DNA of 64,000 bases, taken from the NCBI RefSeq assembly GCF_030409835.1, contig NZ_JAUFQO010000016.1, positions 1-64,000 on the forward strand, given 5' to 3'. The DNA comes from Lutimonas halocynthiae. Lineage in GTDB: Bacteria; Bacteroidota; Bacteroidia; Flavobacteriales; Flavobacteriaceae. The notes under the pieces are model-generated. The model was given only the letters and a program-made list of their open reading frames with translations, ran no database searches and was not told the DNA's origin. The translations under genes were made by a program, and so were the position numbers. Numbering within the stretch: position 1 is the first letter of the stretch; each line of letters opens with the position of its first letter. Positions 2,295 through 13,422 of the stretch are shown one piece after another.

Positions 2295-2615
2295 TTAATT
2301 TTTAGGCTTCTTAACTAGAGTTTTTATAGATCCGATTATCGCCCGTATGAAATAAATACCTGCCGCACTCAATACATAGGTGGGTAAGAATAATTCTGTA
2401 CTATGCATTAAACCGGCAATATAAGCCTTAAAACTAGGCGAGTAATTATCCAAAATCGCTTTAAATAACTCAGCTAATGGAAGGGCCAATATGGCTACGA
2501 ATACAACCCATAAGAACTCTTTTGCAAGAAATTTTTTAAGGGCTGCGAAAAATTTCATCAGCTTACCCTGCTCTTTGGTCAAGGCCTCTTTTTCTGTTGC
2601 TAATATCCCACTCAT
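2295..2615 (-). CDS. Small two-helix membrane protein in eCIS operon (holin-like in layout)
   Basis: A 106-residue protein with a charged N-terminal segment of about 30 residues rich in Lys and Glu, and two hydrophobic helices (roughly residues 34-55 and 75-98) joined by a loop containing NYSPSF, ending in a Lys-rich tail. No family is recognised. Its start codon overlaps the stop of the GH18 gene by 4 bp (ATGA), so the two are translationally coupled. Size, two helices and basic tail are holin-like, and the partner is a cell-wall-type hydrolase, so a release or membrane-anchoring role for the injection particle is plausible. This is inference only. Confidence 0.6.
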   Translation of the reverse strand: MSGILATEKEALTKEQGKLMKFFAALKKFLAKEFLWVVFVAILALPLAELFKAILDNYSPSFKAYIAGLMHSTELFLPTYVLSAAGIYFIRAIIGSIKTLVKKPKN

Positions 2616-4501
2616 GGTAAATTCTTATAATTATTAAGTAATATTTTATTGATAAAAAACAATCCAACAACACCAAAAGAGAAACCAAGTATTAACATCG
2701 TCTTTTTGGAATTGGTGTTGTTCATTAAAATTGCCATGAGACTTACCATCATAATTCCTACATAAAAAATCAAGTACTTGCCACTAAAAAAGATTATTCT
2801 AATATGTGGTTGAAATAATGAAATTATGAATCCGACACCTCCAAAGATTATTATGAATGCTAATATGAATAAAACCAAATGCTGTGAATTCTTGTAGTTC
2901 ACTGTCTTTAAGAATTTTTTAAATTCAGCCCAATTATTGGTCTTGTAATTCCCTTTTTCAACCTTTGTTATTCTTTCAGAAAGGATAGTGTCTTTAGCTT
3001 TTAAATCTTTAATCGACTTGTCATATTTAGAGAATTCAGCCAATATGAAATTTGGTAAAGTATCTAAGCCTGCTTCATTTTTACCAGTAATAACTATTTC
3101 TATTGTATCGGGATATTTATATTCTGGTTTAATGGGTTTTGGTTTTAGTTTTGAAGAATCTTTTTTTACTACAATTTCTTTTAAAATATTCCAATAATTT
3201 TGATGTTCATTATTATATCCTAAGGCCCATATACCAAGGCCATTTAAAGATTCATGATCCACTAAACTCATTTTAGCCTTCATATCCTTATCAGTATCAA
3301 ACCACAATTGTCTCCATTGCCTTTTATAACTAGGAGCAGAAGGAGTTATAATATAAGAATACCAAGAACTCTTACTTATAGAATCATTGCGTATTAATAT
3401 GGAATCATTATGTTTTAATTCGAGCTGTTTTTCCTTTAAAAAGTTTTGAGCTGAATCTTGAGTTAGGTGTTTTATGAAGCGATATACTTTTGAACCCTTT
3501 AAGCCATTTTTTGTTTCCCACAAATTAGCATAAAATGGTAGAGCCAAAATTATTTTCTCTCGAGGCACCTCTTTTTTCTTGCAGTAAACATTGATCGATT
3601 CTGTTAAACTAAAAGGACTTTTTACATCACTTTCAAGGGGAGCTGATGGTCCTGACACCTTACTAGTTGAACTATAGTAGTCATATCCCATAATTACATA
3701 TTGATCAATATAATCGTTTAGATCATCGAACAACAAATAATCATTATAATCAACAGAAGGAACCGTTAAATATAAAAGGTAGTTTTTATCCGAGGATTTA
3801 AATTTCTCTCCTAAAAGCGCAATAAAAGTATTGAAAACCTCCTTATCAGATTTTGAAACACCTTCAAAATCTATACAGACTCCATCAGCATCTGTTCTTT
3901 CTAATTCTTTTAAAATTTTATTAATCAGTCTGATTCCTGCTTCATTATTATTTAAAAACAAACTATTTCTGTCGAACCCAAAGAGTGACAAAGTAATCAA
4001 TACACTCTTATCATGATTATATTTTGCGTGAGTAATTAATTTAGATAACTCAGATCCTTTTGGGCATTCCATATCACCTGAATGGGGATTTACCTTATAA
4101 CCAAAATAGGCAATCGTTGTCAACATGGAATAATTTAAATACCTGTAAAGATTTTTACTCCAATGTGGATAAAAACCTAAGACTTCTTTATTTAGTATAA
4201 TCTGGCTCGTATCTTTAGGTACAAAAAGATCCATTGAATCCTCGTTAATATTTACTCTAAACTCCTTTTTTCCAGAATTTCTTAAGTTCTTATGCCATCT
4301 TATATAACGTTTTGCCAGTTTTGAAGAATCGCTATGATGGAAAAATTTTTTTACTGAAAACTTTTTCTCAACTTTTTTCGTATCTTTTTCTATCGTCTTT
4401 ATTGAAGTGGTTTCTTGTGAGTAAATCACACCATTAAATGGATTCAACCACAATAGGAGAAGAAAATAAATGAAAAAATTACAGGACTTCGAGGGGGTCA
4501 T
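2612..4501 (-). CDS. Secreted/membrane-tethered GH18 hydrolase at the head of the eCIS operon
   Basis: A 629-residue protein. Residues 8-29 form a signal peptide or membrane anchor. A GH18 barrel runs from about residue 105 (EVLGFYPHW) to 440 (GLGIWALGY), with the catalytic motif DGVCIDFEG at 206-214, in which Asp211 and Glu213 are the expected catalytic pair. The usual second Asp of DGxDxDxE is Cys here; Asn at this place is familiar in YaaH-like GH18 enzymes acting on peptidoglycan, so a cell-wall substrate is more likely than chitin. After a linker come three membrane helices (about 545-625). It is the first gene of the leftward operon that includes the tail terminator and sheath. Possible roles are local wall opening, particle release or an exported effector; none is proven. 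Confidence 0.75.
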   Translation of the reverse strand: MTPSKSCNFFIYFLLLLWLNPFNGVIYSQETTSIKTIEKDTKKVEKKFSVKKFFHHSDSSKLAKRYIRWHKNLRNSGKKEFRVNINEDSMDLFVPKDTSQIILNKEVLGFYPHWSKNLYRYLNYSMLTTIAYFGYKVNPHSGDMECPKGSELSKLITHAKYNHDKSVLITLSLFGFDRNSLFLNNNEAGIRLINKILKELERTDADGVCIDFEGVSKSDKEVFNTFIALLGEKFKSSDKNYLLYLTVPSVDYNDYLLFDDLNDYIDQYVIMGYDYYSSTSKVSGPSAPLESDVKSPFSLTESINVYCKKKEVPREKIILALPFYANLWETKNGLKGSKVYRFIKHLTQDSAQNFLKEKQLELKHNDSILIRNDSISKSSWYSYIITPSAPSYKRQWRQLWFDTDKDMKAKMSLVDHESLNGLGIWALGYNNEHQNYWNILKEIVVKKDSSKLKPKPIKPEYKYPDTIEIVITGKNEAGLDTLPNFILAEFSKYDKSIKDLKAKDTILSERITKVEKGNYKTNNWAEFKKFLKTVNYKNSQHLVLFILAFIIIFGGVGFIISLFQPHIRIIFFSGKYLIFYVGIMMVSLMAILMNNTNSKKTMLILGFSFGVVGLFFINKILLNNYKNLP

Positions 4502-5228: not shown

Positions 5229-5663
5229 TTAACTAAACCTCTTAATTGCTCGATATACAGTTCCATATTTTATATTAATACGATATTTCGTTTGAATGTC
5301 TCTACATAATAGCTTACATGATAAATCTAAACTTCTATGGCTTCTCAAAGCTAGCCAATCTTTTATAAATTCTTCAACTTCATCATTTATCACTCTTCGA
5401 GTTCTTCTTCCGGACTTATATTTTTTAAATAACCTCTCGATACCTCCTTCCTCAAAATTAATCTGCCACCTTTTAACCGTTCTTCTGTTGACACCTAGTT
5501 TTAATCCAACAGATGTATAGGTAGATCCTTTCTTGAAATCAAGTAATAGGTATAAAAATGACCTCTTCTTATTAAATCTAATACTGTCATATTCATATTT
5601 ATTTACCTCCACATCTAATTCAAATGTGTCTATATATGATTTGATTTTTTCTCCTCTTTTCAA
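5229..5663 (-). CDS. HTH protein resembling the N-terminal half of IS630-type transposases
   Basis: A 144-residue protein. Residues 30-75 form a helix-turn-helix of the kind STYTSVGLKLGVNRRTVKRW, then EGGIERLFKKYKSGRRTRR, which resembles the double HTH arm of IS630/Tc1 transposases. The DDE catalytic domain is absent: the frame stops at residue 144 after the second HTH, and no continuation is seen between 5197 and 5229. It may be a truncated transposase or a domesticated DNA-binding protein that belongs to the mobile element. It points left, toward the integrase stub. Confidence 0.6.
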   Translation of the reverse strand: MKRGEKIKSYIDTFELDVEVNKYEYDSIRFNKKRSFLYLLLDFKKGSTYTSVGLKLGVNRRTVKRWQINFEEGGIERLFKKYKSGRRTRRVINDEVEEFIKDWLALRSHRSLDLSCKLLCRDIQTKYRINIKYGTVYRAIKRFS

Positions 5664-5791
5664 TTGATGATCTTTATTATTGGCATGTATTAAAATTAAA
5701 CATATTTATTTGATTATAAGCATATTAAATAAATATATTATTATTTTACTCTACGCAACCTTGATGAAGAACTTTTACTTTAAATAATATT

Positions 5792-6184
5792 ATGATCAAT
5801 TCAAATCAATTTAGAGTAAAAATTAAAGAGATCATGGCAGAGGAATTTCTGTCATTATTAGAACAACACTCCCACATCATTTTGGAGAATTACCAATTAA
5901 ATGAATCTTGTTCGGAAGAATTAGATTCTAATATTACCGGAGTTCCCTTGAAAATCTGCCTTTTAAAGCAACTTGGAATACTAAATTTACTAAAGGGAAA
6001 TTTCAATAATTGTAATCAAACTAAATTCAGTTTACTTGTTTCCGTATTAATAGGTGAAAACCAAGAAGCTGTTAGAAAATGCATTAATGAACTATATAGT
6101 GGTAATGAGCATTCTAGAAATTACCCTTGTAAAACAGATTATCATGTGCCAATAATTAAGAATTTTTTACAAAAATTTGAATAA
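5792..6184 (+). CDS. Small helical protein of unknown function, mobile-element associated
   Basis: A 130-residue, mainly helical soluble protein with no motif I can assign. The stretch KICLLKQLGILNLLKGNF followed by ...LLVSVLIGENQEAVRKCINELY resembles small regulatory or accessory proteins that precede excisionase-like genes in Bacteroidota mobile elements. It precedes the HTH gene by 60 bp, which contain a strong palindrome. I would treat it as an accessory gene of the replication module, function unknown. Confidence 0.55.
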   Translation: MINSNQFRVKIKEIMAEEFLSLLEQHSHIILENYQLNESCSEELDSNITGVPLKICLLKQLGILNLLKGNFNNCNQTKFSLLVSVLIGENQEAVRKCINELYSGNEHSRNYPCKTDYHVPIIKNFLQKFE

Positions 6185-6207
6185 AGGGGATATCCCCAAA
6201 ATCCCCT
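6185..6207. promoter_or_regulatory. Nested palindromes upstream of the HTH-rep operon
   Basis: GGGGATATCCCC at 6186-6197 is a perfect 12-bp palindrome. The left arm AGGGGAT can also pair with ATCCCCT at 6201-6207. It begins right after the stop codon of the 130-residue gene and lies about 40 bp before the HTH gene. It could be an operator for the excisionase-like HTH protein or a weak hairpin; there is no T-run to make it a terminator. Confidence 0.45.
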
Positions 6208-6244
6208 ACCATAAAATTGCAGAATAATTATAAAACTAAAAAAT

Positions 6245-6439
6245 ATGCATTATCAAAAGGATTTACAAAAGGAATATTTAAACACTCAAGAATGTATGCT
6301 TCTGTTGGATATATCAAGAACGACTCTTTGGGAATTAAGACGAGAAGGGCGGATACCATTCATTCGTTTAAGAAATAAAATTCTTTATAGTCGCCAAGCA
6401 ATCGAAGAAAGTCTAACAAAAATAAATTATACAAAATGA
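6245..6439 (+). CDS. Excisionase-like helix-turn-helix protein (HTH_17 / MerR-type)
   Basis: A 64-residue protein that is almost entirely one winged-HTH domain: LNTQECMLLLDISRTTLWEL, then REGRIPFIRLRNKILYSRQAIEE. This is the pattern of HTH_17 proteins that serve as excisionases or operon regulators in Bacteroidota mobile elements. Its stop overlaps the start of the next gene by 4 bp, so it heads an overlapping three-gene operon with the replication initiator. Whether it acts in excision or in control of rep cannot be decided from sequence. Confidence 0.75.
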   Translation: MHYQKDLQKEYLNTQECMLLLDISRTTLWELRREGRIPFIRLRNKILYSRQAIEESLTKINYTK

Positions 6440-6918
6440 GAGATCTAAGTAATATAGTATTCCCATTCAATTACACACAGTGTGAAATTTTTGAAAAAAT
6501 TGATTTTAACAAGGCTTATCATGAATCAAACATATTATTTGACCAATACAGGTTCAAATTAGTCAATGGAATTCAAAAAAATAATGAATTACATTATATG
6601 GACGAATATGAAAGTAAAAGGAAAACTATAAAGGGTCATTTAATCGAATATGAATCACTAATTCGCAATCAATTTACCCAAGTTTCGGTGCAAGTAGAAC
6701 CCCATTCAACGCACGACTATAATGAATTTTACCATGACATATTGTTCCAAGAATGCATAGCGTTACAAATCTATCAAGAGAATCAAATTCTCCAATTAGA
6801 TCACTTTGCAAACGAGTTGCTAATAGATTTCTTTATTAAGTTGCAATGCGGACGTGAGCTAAATTACATTAGTTACAGTAATAATAAATTACAATTCCTT
6901 TATTCCAAAGAAGAATGA
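6436..6918 (+). CDS. Unknown 160-residue protein coupled to rep
   Basis: An acidic, soluble, apparently helical protein that I do not recognise. It overlaps the HTH gene at its start and the replication initiator at its end (4-bp ATGA overlaps both times), so all three are translated as a unit. This tight coupling suggests an accessory role in replication or its control. No catalytic motif, signal peptide or membrane segment is seen. Confidence 0.6.
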   Translation: MRDLSNIVFPFNYTQCEIFEKIDFNKAYHESNILFDQYRFKLVNGIQKNNELHYMDEYESKRKTIKGHLIEYESLIRNQFTQVSVQVEPHSTHDYNEFYHDILFQECIALQIYQENQILQLDHFANELLIDFFIKLQCGRELNYISYSNNKLQFLYSKEE

Positions 6919-7814
6919 TCGATAATATAAAAATCAATATACTCTTTGAGGCACCTTCATCGGTGCTTCAGAGAGTTAATTCCACATTAAGAATATTTGG
7001 ATTGAATTTTGACCCAGTAGTGAGAAAAGGAGTTGTAGTGAGGTATGTTTCCAAATTAGATAATCTCCATCTTACAATCAGAGAAGACCAATTAACTATT
7101 CAGAATAGTATTACAAAGTATTATCACGGAAACAACTATACAAATCTCACTTATACACAACTGCAAGAGGCCATATGTAATATTGAAAATATTTTAGGCG
7201 TTTCTATCAGAAAAGCGAAGATAATGAGCTTTGAGTATGGATGTGTTATTGAAGACAATAATATTCCATGGACATTATCCCGACTCGGCCATTATAAAGA
7301 TAAGTCTCCACTCTCAATGCATGCCAATGGATTAATCTATGGCTCTTTCTACGCCAACACTACCCATAAGCTAAAGATGTATGACAAAACCTCAGAGATT
7401 AAGCGAAGGGAAGGAATCATTCTAGATAAGAATCACCTGAGAGTAGAAAAGTGTTACACTAGGTCTCACCTTAACAGTCTTAGATGCCTTAAAAGCAACC
7501 CTATTATAACATTAGATGATTTGGCTAGCTGGAAGGCATACGAAATTCTTTCCCAGGATTTGATTAACAGTTTAAGCAAAATTGAACTTAAGCCTATGTC
7601 CAAGGACCTTGAAAATTTGAGCTCCATGAACCTGAGGCGCTGGTGCTACATTCAAGACCCTTACTTTAGAAAGGTCATGCAAAAGAATCATCCTAAAGCG
7701 TTTGAATCCGACCGAAGAGAATTAAATAAATTAATCCAAGAATATCGTGAAAGTGGACACTTTATGATGATAGAAGAAGTAACACATAAACTAGCCTTTA
7801 ACTTGGCTAATTGA
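6915..7814 (+). CDS. Rolling-circle replication initiator, phage/plasmid II/X family
   Basis: A 299-residue protein with the signature of initiators of filamentous phages and small mobile elements: an N-terminal half containing NSITKYYHGNNYTNLTY, and a central block HKLKMYDKTSEIK then LRVEKCY, matching the (F/M)YDKxxE...LRxE pattern of the II/X and Rep_trans families. Such enzymes nick one strand at a double-stranded origin through a tyrosine and start rolling-circle replication. It overlaps the upstream gene, is followed by a long hairpin and then ssb. No Zot-type morphogenesis gene is nearby, so this looks like a replicating or mobilisable element and not a complete inovirus. The catalytic residues could not be assigned with certainty. 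Confidence 0.72.
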   Translation: MIDNIKINILFEAPSSVLQRVNSTLRIFGLNFDPVVRKGVVVRYVSKLDNLHLTIREDQLTIQNSITKYYHGNNYTNLTYTQLQEAICNIENILGVSIRKAKIMSFEYGCVIEDNNIPWTLSRLGHYKDKSPLSMHANGLIYGSFYANTTHKLKMYDKTSEIKRREGIILDKNHLRVEKCYTRSHLNSLRCLKSNPIITLDDLASWKAYEILSQDLINSLSKIELKPMSKDLENLSSMNLRRWCYIQDPYFRKVMQKNHPKAFESDRRELNKLIQEYRESGHFMMIEEVTHKLAFNLAN

Positions 7815-7821
7815 GGCTATC

Positions 7822-7875
7822 GAAAAGGGAATGGTTTACTGCTTGTATGAATATAGGCAAGTAACCCCCCTTTTC
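7822..7875 (+). other. Long imperfect hairpin between rep and ssb (candidate replication origin)
   Basis: Outer arms GAAAAGGG (7822-7829) and CCCTTTTC (7868-7875) pair perfectly. Inside them GGTT (7833-7836) pairs with AACC (7863-7866). The top is closed by GCTTGTA (7841-7847) against TATAGGC (7852-7858), using two G-T pairs, over a TGAA loop. It begins 7 bp after the rep stop and is not followed by a T-run, so an intrinsic terminator is unlikely. A structured element beside a rolling-circle initiator is what a double- or single-strand origin looks like; that role is inferred. Confidence 0.55.
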
Positions 7876-7936
7876 AAACTTCGATTATACCTTTTAAAGA
7901 ATACTGACAAAACAAACAATTATAAAAACATAAATC

Positions 7937-8278
7937 ATGAGAAATAAAATAAACCTAATTGGTAAAATTCAAAACAAAGGAAAAGTAAAGACTTACAAAA
8001 ACAATGTGAATCGTATTCACTTCAAATTAAGGATAGATGAGAGTTATAAAAATAATGATGGTGAAATGATTCCAAACTATTCATATGTACCATTAGTTGC
8101 TTGGAATGGCACAGCGAAAGTAATTGACAAATATCTTAAAAACGGAAAGGAAGTTGCAATTGAAGCTAGGTTTGATTCATCATCATTTAAAGATAAAGAT
8201 GGCTCAACTCAATATGTGCTTCAAAATGTAGTAAATGACATAATCTTTTTGGAAAGTAGCAAGAAGGTAAAGAGTTAA
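7937..8278 (+). CDS. ssb: Single-stranded DNA-binding protein of the mobile element
   Basis: A 113-residue OB-fold protein: it begins INLIGKIQNKGKV, continues with strands containing FKLRIDESYKN and YVPLVAWNGTAK, then KYLKNGKEVAIEARF, and ends with VVNDIIFLE. This is the SSB core without the acidic C-terminal tail that recruits other replication proteins, as is common for phage and plasmid SSBs. It would coat the single strand displaced during rolling-circle replication. It lies 122 bp after rep, with the hairpin in between. Confidence 0.85.
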   Translation: MRNKINLIGKIQNKGKVKTYKNNVNRIHFKLRIDESYKNNDGEMIPNYSYVPLVAWNGTAKVIDKYLKNGKEVAIEARFDSSSFKDKDGSTQYVLQNVVNDIIFLESSKKVKS

Positions 8279-8716: not shown

Positions 8717-9511
8717 TTAATCTTCCCAAATAACACTTAACGCCATATTCCTAAACGGAATGATGTGCTCATATATATTTCTTTCTTCATCTTCATATTT
8801 ATAGCATTTAAACCAATCCCCAACCGATAAATCTTCTGTTCTTTTTTCCCCTCTTCCTGTTTTAAAGTAACTCGCAGCAAGAGAATCTTCAGGTATTTTT
8901 GAATTCCCTTCAGCCAAATATTTATATGGAAAATCTTTACTTGCCCATTTCCATGCTATCTCATTATTCACGCTAAAAATTATTTGAATTGGATGATTCC
9001 CAATATCGGAAAACCTTATGGCACTTGCAGTTAGACTAACTCGATATTTTTTTGCAAGATTTTCTATAATCGCAAATTCAAATTTTCTTCCTACACAATC
9101 CTTAGAATATCTTTTTTCTGGCATTAATAAACACGAAGAAAAATAATCCGCTTCACGCTCAATTCTGTTATATTTTTGTTTATCATTAAAAGAAGGGTGA
9201 GGCTTCAATAGACCATTCATCAAGCCTATTCTATGTGAATCTATAAAATAATGTCCTAATTCATGCGCCAGCGTAAATCTTCCTCTTGTAGAATCAATAT
9301 CATTACCTCTTTCTGTATTTATATGAATATAAAAACGGTTGTCATCATAAATGGTTATTCCATCAAAAGATTTTCCATAATCATCATAAAACACAAATAA
9401 ATTTTCTGAATCTACAATCTTGTCTAATGGTGTTATAATTTCTTCATGCTCTAATGCAATGAACTCTGCTAAATCCTTTATATAATTTTTAGACGTATTA
9501 CTTACTTCCAT
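8717..9511 (-). CDS. ImmA/IrrE-family zinc metallopeptidase
   Basis: A 264-residue protein with the zinc site HELGH at residues 83-87 inside FTLAHELGHYFIDSHR, and the third ligand region EREADYFSSCLLMP around residue 120, the standard ImmA/IrrE layout. There is no HTH domain; a C-terminal part of about 90 residues is unassigned. Family members cleave regulators in response to DNA damage or foreign DNA (ImmA cuts ImmR, IrrE cuts DdrO, CapP cuts the CBASS repressor CapH). The gene overlaps the 112-residue gene by 14 bp and is the last of a three-gene operon headed by a sigma factor and divergent from CBASS. A regulatory protease for this defence cluster is the likely role. Confidence 0.82.
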   Translation of the reverse strand: MEVSNTSKNYIKDLAEFIALEHEEIITPLDKIVDSENLFVFYDDYGKSFDGITIYDDNRFYIHINTERGNDIDSTRGRFTLAHELGHYFIDSHRIGLMNGLLKPHPSFNDKQKYNRIEREADYFSSCLLMPEKRYSKDCVGRKFEFAIIENLAKKYRVSLTASAIRFSDIGNHPIQIIFSVNNEIAWKWASKDFPYKYLAEGNSKIPEDSLAASYFKTGRGEKRTEDLSVGDWFKCYKYEDEERNIYEHIIPFRNMALSVIWED

Positions 9512-9836
9512 TCTTATGTTTACTTCTCATCTTTTGAAGAATTTCCTTTGGAATTTCATTTTCACCTTTTCTGGCAACCATTTTAAAATCATCAAAATTA
9601 TCTATTTCATCCTTTTTCAATAATGAAACAACTTTTCCTTTAAAGCTAAAGTTCCCCTCAATAATTTTGTTCGTATCTATACGTGACAAGTCAATCTTAT
9701 GTTCAAAATTTTCATACAACTTCTCAAAAACATCAAGCTCTGTTTCATTTCTAGGGAATAAATAGCCAGTTGAACTAAGCCAAAAGTCAAAATTGTTCTT
9801 ATCCACTAATCCACTTAATTTATCTTTTTTAGCCAT
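9498..9836 (-). CDS. 112-residue protein linking sigma factor and metallopeptidase
   Basis: A charged soluble protein that I do not recognise. It overlaps the sigma-factor gene by 8 bp and the peptidase gene by 14 bp, so the three products are made together. It is Lys/Asp/Glu-rich, with a central FSFKGKVVSLLKKDE stretch and a C-terminus ending in basic residues (MRSKHKNGSK). Given its position, it could be an anti-sigma factor, an adaptor or the substrate of the peptidase; this is inference with no motif to support it. Confidence 0.55.
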   Translation of the reverse strand: MAKKDKLSGLVDKNNFDFWLSSTGYLFPRNETELDVFEKLYENFEHKIDLSRIDTNKIIEGNFSFKGKVVSLLKKDEIDNFDDFKMVARKGENEIPKEILQKMRSKHKNGSK

Positions 9837-10497
9837 TTATCCTATTTAAATATGATTCAATTGCCTTATTAGCTTCCTGTTTATACTTCCTTATCGATCC
9901 TGTTGTTAATTCAAGTTCAACTTGTAATTTTTTGCTAATCGCCCTAGGAATATTTTTGTTGTTTTCTTGAACATATAACTTATAGTTTAAATAAATTATT
10001 CTATGTTTCTCAGTTAATTGTGAAAGTGCTTTCTCTACAACTTCGAGTCTTTTTCGAAGCATTCTTCTTCCATCTTCGGATGGAGATGAAATATCAATTA
10101 ATTCTTGAACAGAATAAATCAAGGAGAGATCCGTGTCTTTATCAGGTTCATAACATGTTCCTTTAGATTTGTAATTAACTAGTTGAGTAAAAATAATTCT
10201 ATAAAGCCATAATTTGATTCCTTTTTCAACATTTGAGGCTTTTGATTTTTTATGATCATATGTTGGGTACTTCCAAACTTTATTAAAAACACATTTAGAA
10301 ATGTCTAAAGCAATGATTTCGTTATAACCCCAATTGCAACAAATTATTTCTGAATTTTTCAAAACATCTTGCTCAAACCTAAGCATAAATTCTTCAAAGG
10401 CTCTTTTTGCCTCTTCAGGGTATTCATCTTTCCAAGCAATATATTCAATTAAGTCATCAGATGTTGCTTTTTGCAACTCTTCTACTGAAACCTCCAT
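9829..10497 (-). CDS. ECF-like sigma-70 family factor of the island
   Basis: A 222-residue protein with a region-2-like N-terminal half (around residues 60-115, including KGIKLWLYRIIFTQLVNYK) and a region-4 HTH (about 150-215: ALSQLTEKHRIIYLNYKLY, then SKKLQVELELTTGSIRKYK). The layout is that of an ECF sigma factor with a slightly extended linker. It heads the leftward operon with the 112-residue protein and the ImmA/IrrE peptidase and is divergent from the CBASS effector gene, with 144 bp between the two starts. It may drive its own operon, CBASS, or both. It is distinct from the chromosomal ECF gene at 55352. Confidence 0.72.
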   Translation of the reverse strand: MEVSVEELQKATSDDLIEYIAWKDEYPEEAKRAFEEFMLRFEQDVLKNSEIICCNWGYNEIIALDISKCVFNKVWKYPTYDHKKSKASNVEKGIKLWLYRIIFTQLVNYKSKGTCYEPDKDTDLSLIYSVQELIDISSPSEDGRRMLRKRLEVVEKALSQLTEKHRIIYLNYKLYVQENNKNIPRAISKKLQVELELTTGSIRKYKQEANKAIESYLNRING

Positions 10498-10518
10498 AGG
10501 TTTATATTAATCATACCA

Positions 10519-10537
10519 AAAGCGTGAGTCACGCTTT
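10519..10537. promoter_or_regulatory. Perfect 19-bp palindrome in the divergent sigma/CBASS promoter region
   Basis: AAAGCGTGA (10519-10527), one central G, and TCACGCTTT (10529-10537) form a perfect inverted repeat of 9+1+9 bp. It lies 21 bp upstream of the sigma-factor start and about 105 bp upstream of the CBASS effector start. Its GC-rich core stands out from the AT-rich surroundings. This is the form of an operator for a dimeric regulator; which protein binds it is not known. Confidence 0.55.
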
Positions 10538-10553
10538 AAGTAGATGGTTGAGA

Positions 10554-10641: not shown

Positions 10642-11259
10642 ATGAAACAAGATTTTTTAAAATATTATAAGTCTAATTTTCTAGTTTTTTTAATAGGAAT
10701 ACTATTATTCATAGTTATTTCAGCTAAAAGTCACTGGAATTTATCCATTTCAATATTTAGTATAGTAACTACTTTCTTGGTGACTATTACAAACTATTTA
10801 TGGAAATACAAACCATTTAAATGGTTGTTTACTTTCGATGATTTTTCCGGTCGATATGAAGGAATTTTAAGATACCAATACAAAAATGAATCCGGTGAGC
10901 TTATTACCGATGATTTAAGGCATATCAAAATCATTAAACAAAATGGAAGTGGCATATCAGTGTCTTCTTTTACATATGGATCAAATGGAACAAAATCATC
11001 TGAATCTGTTAACAAAGGAATGCATATTGAAAAAACAAAGGATGAGCAGCACCACATACTAATTTATAATTTCTTAAATGATGGGAATCAAAATAAAAGT
11101 TTCCCGCCGCACTATGGAACTGATGTGCTAAAATTCATTAAAAATGGGAATATGAAATTATTATCTGGAAGATATTTCACAGAAAGATATCCATTTCAAA
11201 CCAGAGGTGAGTACATAAAACTTCAATGGGTCAGTAATAACTTAAATCACGATTTTTAA
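10642..11259 (+). CDS. cap15: CBASS effector, Cap15-like (2 TM + cyclic-nucleotide-binding beta-barrel)
   Basis: A 205-residue protein with two membrane helices (about residues 13-31 and 35-54) and a beta-rich cytoplasmic domain starting at FDDFSGRYEGILRYQY. That is the architecture of Cap15 (S-2TM-beta effectors): the barrel binds a cyclic nucleotide, then the protein multimerises and disrupts the inner membrane, killing the phage-infected cell. It is followed after 14 bp by the CD-NTase gene, the expected partner. Identification rests on architecture, the GRYEG...LRYQY strand pattern and context; a structure prediction would confirm the barrel. Confidence 0.8.
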   Translation: MKQDFLKYYKSNFLVFLIGILLFIVISAKSHWNLSISIFSIVTTFLVTITNYLWKYKPFKWLFTFDDFSGRYEGILRYQYKNESGELITDDLRHIKIIKQNGSGISVSSFTYGSNGTKSSESVNKGMHIEKTKDEQHHILIYNFLNDGNQNKSFPPHYGTDVLKFIKNGNMKLLSGRYFTERYPFQTRGEYIKLQWVSNNLNHDF

Positions 11260-11273
11260 AAAATAGTAAAACT

Positions 11274-12275
11274 ATGGCAGTATTACATAAGGAATTTATA
11301 GAATTTAATAAGAACATAAGCCTAACATCTAAGAGAAAAGAAAGTTTAAAAAATAGCCGTAAGGAGTTGCGAAAGAAAATTCGCAAATGGTTTAAAGATA
11401 ACAAGCCAGATGAATTACAACCAAAATTTAATGGGCAAGGCTCATACAGCATGAATACTGTTATTAATCCTTTGCCGGTGACAGATAGTCAAGGAAAACA
11501 AAAGTTAATGTACGACTTAGACGATGGTGTTTATTTTATTAAAAAGAATGAACAAAACGATCATAGATCAATCAATACATTGCATAACTGGATTTTTGAC
11601 TCAGTAGATAATCATACAGGGCAAAGTTCAATAAAAAAAAATACATGTATTAGAGTCGTTTTTGCGGATGGTCATCACATAGATTTACCAATTTATTATA
11701 AAAATGAAGAATCTATCTTGTTGGCTCATAGATCAAAAGGTTGGTTGGAGAGCGACCCAAAAGAGTTTACCGAGTGGTTCAATGGTAAAAAAACAACTCA
11801 GCTGGAGCGTATTGTTAGATATTTAAAAGCATGGAAAAATTTTAGAGAAACAAATAATAATAGCTTAAAATTACCTAGTGGTTTTGAACTTACCATTTTG
11901 GCCACTGAAAATTATTTTGAAGATGATAATGATGACAGAGCTTTTCGAGAAACAATAAGAAACATAGAATCTCAATTGACTAATACATTTGGATTTAAAT
12001 GTTTACGGCCAACTACCCCAGCGGGTGAAGATCTATTCGCAAACTATTCCGATACTAGAAAAAGTAATTTCTTGAGCAGCATATCGAGTTTATTAAACGA
12101 TTTGGATCGAGCGGATGAGGAGCCTAACTTTAGAAAAGCCTCTAATATATTAGTGAAAAATCAGTTTGGAAGTCGATATCCACTTGGTGAAGACAATGAC
12201 AGTGACACTAAAAATAAGGAATTAATTAAGGCCTTGGGCATGGCAACCGTAACACCGAAACCCTATGGATATTAA
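11274..12275 (+). CDS. CD-NTase (cGAS/DncV-like nucleotidyltransferase) of CBASS
   Basis: A 333-residue enzyme with the nucleotidyltransferase motif GQGSYSMNT (residues 54-62), the metal-binding pair in YDLDDGVYF (Asp81, Asp83) and a third Asp at 137 in HHIDLPIYY. Further matches to the Vibrio DncV pattern are GWLESDPKEFTEWFN and RIVRYLKAWKNFRE, so it is DncV-like, although about 100 residues shorter. It makes a cyclic di- or trinucleotide when phage is sensed, which activates the Cap15-like effector upstream. The C-terminus ends PKPYGY, with the Gly penultimate. Its last 11 bp overlap the E2-like gene. The nucleotide product cannot be read from sequence. Confidence 0.88.
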   Translation: MAVLHKEFIEFNKNISLTSKRKESLKNSRKELRKKIRKWFKDNKPDELQPKFNGQGSYSMNTVINPLPVTDSQGKQKLMYDLDDGVYFIKKNEQNDHRSINTLHNWIFDSVDNHTGQSSIKKNTCIRVVFADGHHIDLPIYYKNEESILLAHRSKGWLESDPKEFTEWFNGKKTTQLERIVRYLKAWKNFRETNNNSLKLPSGFELTILATENYFEDDNDDRAFRETIRNIESQLTNTFGFKCLRPTTPAGEDLFANYSDTRKSNFLSSISSLLNDLDRADEEPNFRKASNILVKNQFGSRYPLGEDNDSDTKNKELIKALGMATVTPKPYGY

Positions 12276-12918
12276 TACTGAAATTAATCAGGTTATTGAG
12301 AATTTTCCAGAACTAAATTACGATCGCAATAATAATTGCCTATGGGGAATTATTAAGGTGTCAGGATTTGATTTTTATCAGATAAAAATTGACCTTAAAC
12401 CTTACCCTGAATTTTTTCCTTTGGTATATGAGTTAGATGGACGTATTCCTCGAAGAATTGAAAGACATGTATATTCTGATTCTGGTTCATGCTGTTTTAC
12501 CACTAAGGCAAGATCGCAGATTTTATTAAAAACAAAGATTACAAGTATTTATCTGTTTATAAAAAATATTGTCATTCCTTATTTTCAAAATAACTCATAT
12601 TATGAAATCAATATGAAATATAAAACCGATGAATATTCTCACAATGGAGAAGGGGTGATTGAAGGATATAGAGATATTCTTCAAATTCATAACGATTTAA
12701 AAATTGCGGAATTATTGTTTAATCGATACAAAGGAGGGAAACTTAAGGTTAGAGACTTATGCTATTGTGGCAGTAATATTAAACTAAAAAAATGCACCAA
12801 TGGTATCCACGATATTTGCTATAGAGACTTTAAAAAAATCGATAAAAATATTTTAGGAACTGATCTTATAAACTATTTCTACCCACACCTAAAATCATTG
12901 GGTTTGGTTAATTCTTGA
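12265..12918 (+). CDS. E2-like protein of type II-short CBASS with C-terminal SEC-C-type motif
   Basis: A 217-residue protein. Residues 1-110 fit a prokaryotic E2 (ubiquitin-conjugating) fold: a beta-meander ending in YPEFFPLVYELDG, then RHVYSDSGSCCF, with His68 and the candidate catalytic Cys76/Cys77. No E1 (ThiF) domain and no JAB protease gene follow, so the operon is of the short type II form, in which the E2-like protein alone modifies the C-terminus of the CD-NTase. Near the C-terminus, CYCGSNIKLKKC (residues 166-177) is a SEC-C-like zinc-binding motif, perhaps with His182. The 11-bp overlap with the CD-NTase gene implies coupled synthesis. Confidence 0.77.
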   Translation: MDINTEINQVIENFPELNYDRNNNCLWGIIKVSGFDFYQIKIDLKPYPEFFPLVYELDGRIPRRIERHVYSDSGSCCFTTKARSQILLKTKITSIYLFIKNIVIPYFQNNSYYEINMKYKTDEYSHNGEGVIEGYRDILQIHNDLKIAELLFNRYKGGKLKVRDLCYCGSNIKLKKCTNGIHDICYRDFKKIDKNILGTDLINYFYPHLKSLGLVNS

Positions 12919-13095: not shown

Positions 13096-13422
13096 ATGAT
13101 TTCAAAGCAAGCATTAGGAAGTATACTGTTTGGAATGGCAGACATTCTGAGAGACAAAGTAGAAGATTACAAATCTTACATATTAACCCTGTTATTCTTT
13201 AAAAGACTTTCTGACAACTATGAATGGGAAACTGAAAACGCCATTAAGGAATTTAAAAACGAGTACGGTTCTGAACCTAATGAAAAACAGCTTAAAAAGA
13301 TTTTAGAGAAAAAGCACGATTTTAAAATTCCAGATAATTGTTTTTGGACTCTATTACGTTCATACTTTCCTGAATATAAAAAAGCTGTAAAATGGTTAGA
13401 CTTATATGGAAACAGTTTATGA
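13096..13422 (+). pseudogene. hsdM: Truncated type I restriction-modification methyltransferase (hsdM N-terminal stump)
   Basis: The first 90 or so codons are a clear HsdM N-terminal domain: GMADILRDKVEDYKSYILTL, then FFKRLSDNYEWE, then EPNEKQLKKILEKKHDFKIP and NCFW. After that the sequence diverges and the frame stops at residue 108, whereas HsdM is about 500 residues. No hsdM catalytic domain, hsdS or hsdR follows. The start codon and frame are intact, so the break is a deletion or replacement just after codon 90. It shows the island once carried a type I system. Confidence 0.85.

Follow-up and report, generated by a model that had tools for sequence, protein, structure and literature searches.

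How do bacteria keep suicidal immune operons off, and what switches them on? A locus of Lutimonas halocynthiae (Flavobacteriaceae) raises this question. In a window of 64,000 nucleotides (assembly GCF_030409835.1, contig NZ_JAUFQO010000016.1, positions 1 to 64,000), an operon of the cyclic-oligonucleotide-based antiphage signaling system (CBASS) faces three genes, hereafter the trio, which encode a sigma factor-like protein, a small protein of 112 residues and a zinc protease. According to the available portion of PMC13373217, the damage-responsive controls CapW/BrxR, CapH+CapP and CapK+CapS all act through repressors, and the CapP protease is activated by single-stranded DNA (ssDNA) and cleaves CapH. 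Our analysis suggests that the trio is a reusable way of turning on bacterial immunity. That it controls the operon it faces is likely; that it does so as a sigma factor with an anti-sigma factor destroyed by the protease, in the place that CapH holds in CapH+CapP, we consider probable, with fair rather than high confidence.

The trio is conserved and faces several kinds of immune operon

The initial annotation of the window had described three overlapping genes transcribed away from CBASS, and the open reading frame (ORF) coordinates confirm this. The three ORFs lie at 8717-10497 on the minus strand, with overlaps of 8 bases between the 222-residue and 112-residue genes and of 14 bases between the 112-residue and 264-residue genes. 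Beyond 144 intergenic bases, the divergent operon occupies 10642-12918 on the plus strand, and we call it CBASS because it holds both a CD-NTase and an effector (Table 1).

Searches with the 112-residue protein found it in 6/395 genomes of the class, and its profile found 9/395 genomes of the phylum, the genome of origin being included in both counts. The N-terminal domain of this protein recovered 15/245 genomes of a family labelled f16 and 19/395 genomes of the phylum at an expectation value (E) of <=0.01, the true members among the latter being the same 9; the ten weak matches (E 4.8e-4 to 9.0e-3) were inspected and rejected as unrelated genes. A sigma-profile scan of 84,980 species genomes yielded 36 loci. 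The order sigma>112-aa>ImmA was found in 35/36, a count that includes L036 via its twin contig L015 as well as L062 and L069, which are cut by contig ends; the exception is L071, with broken sigma and ImmA frames. The same gene order in dozens of genomes indicates that the trio is more than a product of chance.

Altogether 56 distinct loci were collected (the window, L015-L021, L030-L035, L037, L039-L042, L044-L054, L056-L058, L060-L067, L069-L071 and L103-L114). Before this count, four were dropped as the same contigs, judged by their length (L036 = L015, L038 = L033, L043 = L016, L059 = L031) and two as near-identical (L055 to L054, L068 to L066), while other close pairs were kept. The divergent side was readable in 55 loci, L069 having no upstream sequence. 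It carries CBASS in 28, the pyrimidine cyclase system for antiphage resistance (Pycsar) in 8 and an E1/E2 ubiquitin-like operon in 13, that is, one of these three in 49/55, where representatives of the neighbour families were scanned and the others were assigned by clustering, BLAST or likeness to them. The CD-NTases of L109, L110, L112 and L113 were assigned by BLAST, that of L110 also by PADLOC. The weakest E1/E2 calls are L034 and, by likeness, L105 (ThiF 0.0052, below cut-off; YukD 4.3e-8); the E2 of L037 and L040 is also weak (21.1 bits for L037, below cut-off). One further locus (L111) faces a PIN-TPR-GreABC gene, and two (L103, L104) face a DUF1508 gene. The sigma scan taken alone, which did not ask for immune genes, gave a uniform picture: 32/36 loci were examined, 31 were readable, and 31/31 face an immune operon (20 CBASS, 7 Pycsar, 4 E1/E2).

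A trio found mostly away from defence genes had been named in the initial annotation as the outcome that would speak against a CBASS control module, and these counts point the other way. The module itself was recovered in a broader form: the trio takes the CapH+CapP position with a sigma-like protein replacing the helix-turn-helix (HTH) repressor, but it is not specific to CBASS, as Pycsar and E1/E2 operons are faced too. Records of Thauera, Salipiger and Acinetobacter contain HTH+CapP pairs divergent from CBASS in the same layout as the trio; the sigma/112-residue pair therefore takes the place of CapH.

The facing operons show some features of their own. All 8 Pycsar operons (PycTM plus PycC; L020, L039, L047, L050, L053, L061, L065 and L071) carry an extra E2-like gene, as CBASS does, identified by PADLOC E1-E2 (1.7e-56) for L020 and by clustering for the other loci. 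Small basic proteins (41 residues, MAKDSSGKKFNRIPEHKRKV..., or 57 residues, MATNPPKDGSRKGAVRQRSQ...) open the immune operon; a regular expression found them in 12/56 regions, L055 included, the other intergenic regions being those of L033, L039, L044, L045, L046, L048, L049, L051, L054, L057 and L065. The divergent proteins of L018 (417 residues) and L021 (322 residues), which matched nothing in Pfam (E<=0.01) or PADLOC (E<=0.001), may be unknown immune proteins. The DUF1508 gene that faces the sigma module (Pfam 3.2e-43 for L104; L103 by likeness) is one that we take to be of the YegP type. A YegP-like gene is reported beside CapK+CapS in the available portion of PMC13373217.

The three genes co-vary

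Pairwise-distance correlations over 36 loci were high for every pair of the trio (sigma/112-aa r 0.914; sigma/ImmA 0.940; ImmA/112-aa 0.905), and 0/999 permutations were as high for any pair. This set excludes the six duplicates, L019, L034, L035, L062, L069, L071 and the loci fetched later, together with L015 and L021, whose 112-residue ORF is missing from the ORF table. Over 14 CBASS loci of one CD-NTase cluster, the CD-NTase correlated with the sigma protein at r 0.545, against 0.962 for sigma and the 112-residue protein in the same loci. The trio thus appears to be inherited as one unit while the immune operons get exchanged.

The C-terminus of the small protein changes with the protease

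Members of family f16 keep the sigma gene and the N-terminal domain, and the remainder of the module changes. L035 and L107 encode a protein of ~280 residues with a Panacea-like C-terminus, a small membrane-looking protein and a caspase (Pfam 3.4e-14 and 3.3e-18, respectively). L106 encodes the first two of these, and no caspase was seen in the stretch. The proteins of L108-L113 (240-255 residues) have a similar C-terminus and no neighbouring protease that we recognised by eye, the neighbours being unscanned, and L114 combines a 99-residue protein bearing another tail with a subtilase (2e-28). The basis of the Panacea label is a single match below threshold (L111, 0.0062) together with visible similarity; four other such proteins scanned, and L035, gave no Panacea match.

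Where ImmA is adjacent, the small protein ends in an (A/V)AR tail in 52/52 loci, six duplicates included; our script counted 51, its distance rule having missed L032, whose ImmA adjoins. The tail is present in 0/10 loci without ImmA, discounting a regular-expression match inside the Panacea-like domain of L107 (62 loci in total, six duplicates among them). Such paired swapping is expected if the sigma factor is contacted by the N-terminal domain and the protease by the tail, and it lends support to the idea of an anti-sigma factor that is cleaved. We also considered the tail as a segment that is common to CapH and cut by CapP, and rejected this, as the CapH-type proteins compared have no such tail.

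The trio encodes a CapP-type protease and a diverged sigma factor-like protein

The protease belongs to the CapP type. It matches Pfam Peptidase_M78 (4.5e-12), the PADLOC capP profile (5.9e-64 over residues 9-264, almost full length) and the solved CapP 7t5t in PDB (1.3e-12), which bears out its initial assignment to the ImmA/IrrE family of zinc proteases. HExxH (H83, E84, H87) and the third ligand, E118, are invariant in 8/8 aligned proteases. An hhalign comparison with Thauera CapP gave 99.1% over 205 columns, the C-terminal part included, so that the M78/IrrE fold, the HExxH plus E and the conserved C-terminal domain of CapP are all present. The solved CapP is, by its matching letters, the protease of Thauera; those of Salipiger and Acinetobacter are CapP-like by annotation and similarity. 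In a tree of 49 ImmA/CapP proteins, which came with long-branch warnings, the three HTH-paired CapPs, L019 and a planctomycete protein lie on one side of the midpoint root.

The first protein of the trio is, as judged from its sequence family, a diverged sigma70/extracytoplasmic function (ECF)-like factor. Searched against PDB, the profile of this family finds ECF sigma chains (best 0.0023), and Sigma70_r2 matches 3/8 relatives (best 5.6e-6). Among four further members scanned, L105 (25.0 bits) and L114 (30.3 bits) pass the Sigma70_r2 cut-off of 24 bits. Region 4 was seen only at sub-threshold level, in 1/8 relatives at 0.092 and in L114 at 0.0032. The earlier label of an ECF-like sigma factor therefore holds for sigma region 2 at the level of the family, but the window protein alone stays below the cut-offs. 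This protein gave no match in viral contigs, searched with near-exact peptide patterns only, or in phages, and searches of this sensitivity thus give no hint of a phage origin.

In the 112-residue protein, M1, G24, A88 and R89 are invariant in 42/42 members. It gave no useful PDB match.

Table 1. Features of the trio, the facing CBASS operon and the region between them (window positions).
Feature	Position	Strand	Basis
Sigma70/ECF-like protein, 222 aa, first trio gene	9829..10497	-	Weak sigma match; family profile
112-aa protein, proposed anti-sigma factor	9498..9836	-	N-terminal domain GYLFPRNETEL..FEKLY + (A/V)AR tail, MVARKG in window
CapP-type ImmA/IrrE zinc protease, 264 aa	8717..9511	-	Peptidase_M78, PADLOC capP, PDB 7t5t
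Inverted repeat, divergent promoter region	10511..10545	both strands	TCACGCTTTTGGTATGA and TCACGCTTTAAGTAGAT half-sites
Cap15-type membrane effector of CBASS	10642..11259	+	Pfam Cap15_CD_rec 5.5e-8; PADLOC 2TM effector 5e-86
CD-NTase (cGAS/DncV-like) of CBASS	11274..12275	+	NCBIfam cGAS 2.2e-69; PADLOC cyclase 1.2e-116
E2-like CBASS ancillary protein, C-terminal SEC-C-like motif	12265..12918	+	PADLOC E2 1.4e-60; SEC-C 0.0055, below cut-off

An inverted repeat lies between the two operons

In the window, TCACGCTTTTGGTATGA faces the sigma gene (10511-10527, minus strand) and is separated by 1 bp from TCACGCTTTAAGTAGAT, which faces CBASS (10529-10545, plus strand). The element recurs: TnACGCTTTTnGGTATA stands upstream of the sigma gene and faces it in many loci, often with an inverted partner toward the immune operon, and the best partner half-site lies at exactly 1 bp in 16/53 regions, the window included. 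The half-sites are further apart in L019, L021 and L035, and loci with ~600 bp between the operons have a variant repeat instead. When scored against simple shuffles with leave-one-out, the window half-sites gave p 0.005 (sigma-facing) and p 0.025 (partner). In the genome, the sigma-facing half-site occurs exactly only at the window site and at one further place with one mismatch, where the control gave none. The repeat is consistent with joint control of the two divergent operons by the sigma factor of the locus.

Discussion

We propose that the N-terminal domain of the 112-residue protein would keep the sigma factor from acting. On damage or infection, the ImmA/IrrE protease would become active, ssDNA being the trigger for its CapP kin, and would then destroy the 112-residue protein at or near the conserved (A/V)AR tail at its C-terminus. 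Once free, the sigma factor could direct RNA polymerase to the inverted-repeat promoter region, raising transcription of CBASS and probably also of the trio's own operon. Sigma binding, cleavage, the trigger, promoter recognition and induction are the steps that we infer. If true, a protease-released sigma factor would be a positive control that could amplify itself, and it would mean a common logic for CBASS, Pycsar and the ubiquitin-like systems of bacteria.

Several observations weigh against this reading. The window sigma protein matches TIGR02937 at E=0.029, below cut-off, and it has no Pfam sigma match on its own; nor have L107 and L110, among the four further members scanned. Neither Pfam nor NCBIfam assigns the 112-residue protein to an anti-sigma family. 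In 3/55 loci (L018, L021, L108) the divergent side is unassigned or lacks a close gene, 2/55 (L103, L104) face only the DUF1508 gene, and the loci are related, so that the counts are not independent events. The promoter element was first spotted by eye in the same regions in which it was later tested. There, on the shuffling scale given above, the sigma-facing site reached p<=0.01 in only 22/53 regions and the partner half-site did so in 7/53 (p<=0.05 in 17/53). The core of the window repeat occurs once in the genome at <=1 mismatch, and a reversed-pattern control also gave one match per strand. An attempt to place -35/-10 boxes in the repeat failed, the spacing fitting no standard pair, and a near-palindromic repeat could equally be a repressor site.

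This last point leads to the explanation in which the 112-residue protein is itself a DNA-binding repressor, a diverged CapH that the protease removes, with the sigma-like protein as an accessory. The protease is CapP-like, a near-palindromic element lies between the two operons, and the PADLOC capH profile matches the window protein at 7.8e-10 and 8/8 members scanned (best 2.2e-13), the N- and C-terminal fragments of L017 and L020 each matching separately; a hidden relation to CapH is therefore possible. However, the same profile also matches in 14/14 unrelated control genomes, and we rejected the match as proof of CapH membership because the profile is unspecific. The HTH proteins beside CapP in Thauera K11, Salipiger and Acinetobacter match neither the A3 nor the A9 profile (E<=10), and hhalign aligned just 7 columns of the 112-residue family with HTH CapH-type proteins, at a probability of 0.2%. 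Moreover, the 112-residue protein matches no HTH family in Pfam or NCBIfam, and the N-terminal domain comes after a sigma-like gene in the loci fetched. On these comparisons, the protein does not look like the HTH DNA-binding repressor encoded upstream of CapP, and we regard a diverged CapH as unlikely.

We give a similarly small chance to a scheme in which the sigma factor itself is what the protease cleaves or activates, with the 112-residue protein as protease inhibitor or adaptor. A C-terminus that tracks the protease type would be seen with an adaptor or inhibitor too, but the N-terminal domain goes with the sigma gene and is kept where ImmA is absent, and known CapP cuts the partner encoded beside it (PMC13373217, available portion). 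It is also quite improbable, in our view, that the three genes form an independent cassette, of a stress or toxin-antitoxin-like kind, which is carried along in defence islands without controlling the neighbouring operon. L018, L021 and L108, which face no recognised immune operon, would suit such a cassette, as would a planctomycete plasmid trio of a sigma factor, a 132-residue protein and ImmA, near which we recognised no immune operon in the sequence read. Against it stand the head-to-head, divergent arrangement of the great majority of loci, the inverted repeat shared by part of them, and the HTH+CapP pairs that hold the same position.

A sigma factor restrained by a protease-sensitive anti-sigma factor thus remains our preferred account. 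There is, we think, an even chance that it extends to a plug-in immune switch, in which one sigma/anti-sigma core carries exchangeable C-terminal tails on the anti-sigma factor, each suited to another protease or adaptor (ImmA/IrrE, caspase, subtilase, Panacea-like), and fronts immune systems as unrelated as CBASS, Pycsar and the ubiquitin-like operons, so that different danger signals would lead to the same transcriptional output. Caspase, subtilase and ImmA swap together with matching tails, which opens the sensor-inhibitor pairing to direct tests and is reminiscent of how type III CRISPR (clustered regularly interspaced short palindromic repeats) couples a protease to a sigma factor.

Comparison with known systems

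With CapH+CapP, the trio shares a CapP-like protease, a partner encoded just upstream, the divergent position next to CBASS and the presumed logic of a protease that removes an inhibitor. It differs in having no match to the HTH repressor CapH, in whose stead it has a sigma-like protein and a small, unrelated one, so that the immune operon would be activated by a released sigma factor and not simply derepressed. The trio also lies beside operons of the Pycsar and ubiquitin-like kinds. The available portion of PMC13373217 reports CapW or CapH+CapP beside Bub operons.

The logic of protease, anti-sigma factor and sigma factor has its precedent in immunity in Calp of type III CRISPR, in which, according to the portion of PMC12751052 available, the protease CalpL (Lon-SAVED) cleaves the anti-sigma factor CalpT and releases the sigma factor CalpS at an immune locus, as we propose for the trio. 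The trio protease, in contrast, is of the ImmA/IrrE type (caspase or subtilase in relatives), with M78/CapP matches and no Lon or SAVED match in Pfam or PADLOC, and the trio lies beside CBASS, Pycsar or E1/E2 operons. CapK+CapS is likewise a reusable damage-responsive unit found beside several kinds of immune operon and resembles anti-sigma machinery, but it consists of a kinase and a phosphorylated STAS-wHTH DNA-binding repressor upstream of immune operons, and the available portion of PMC13373217 describes no sigma factor or protease for it. ECF sigma factors also occur near caspases in EACC2 systems, in an arrangement that differs from the trio (PMC8195603, in the portion available). Our literature search found no described sigma/ImmA module at CBASS, although a mention in Lau 2022 or in the nucleotide-centric conflict survey is possible.

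Related arrangements and the surroundings of the locus

Plasmids of Pontibacter and Spirosoma carry an unrelated or very diverged trio of a 200-residue protein, a protein of about 140 residues and ImmA, which we rejected as members because the first and middle proteins match no profile of the window trio. The Pontibacter trio (L116; 200 and 140 residues, ImmA) is divergent from genes that carry the annotations multiubiquitin and ThiF; umuD and a Y-family polymerase come after it, which hints at a link with DNA damage. The Spirosoma trio is divergent from unscanned genes that look ubiquitin-like by eye. The planctomycete trio mentioned above lies at 2520-4400 of an Isosphaeraceae plasmid (L118, Planctomycetota), where the annotated sigma factor reaches 23.9 bits for Sigma70_r2, just under the cut-off. 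The idea of a sigma factor, a small protein and ImmA may reach beyond the family of the window trio.

In the window, CBASS adjoins an N-terminal HsdM fragment of 108 residues (13096-13422; Pfam 1.7e-15), likely a remnant of type I restriction. The stretch preceding the trio (5229-8278) contains an HTH ORF resembling a transposase fragment and an excisionase-like ORF of 64 residues, both recognised by eye, together with a single-strand-binding protein (Pfam SSB 1.2e-15), as in an integrated mobile element.

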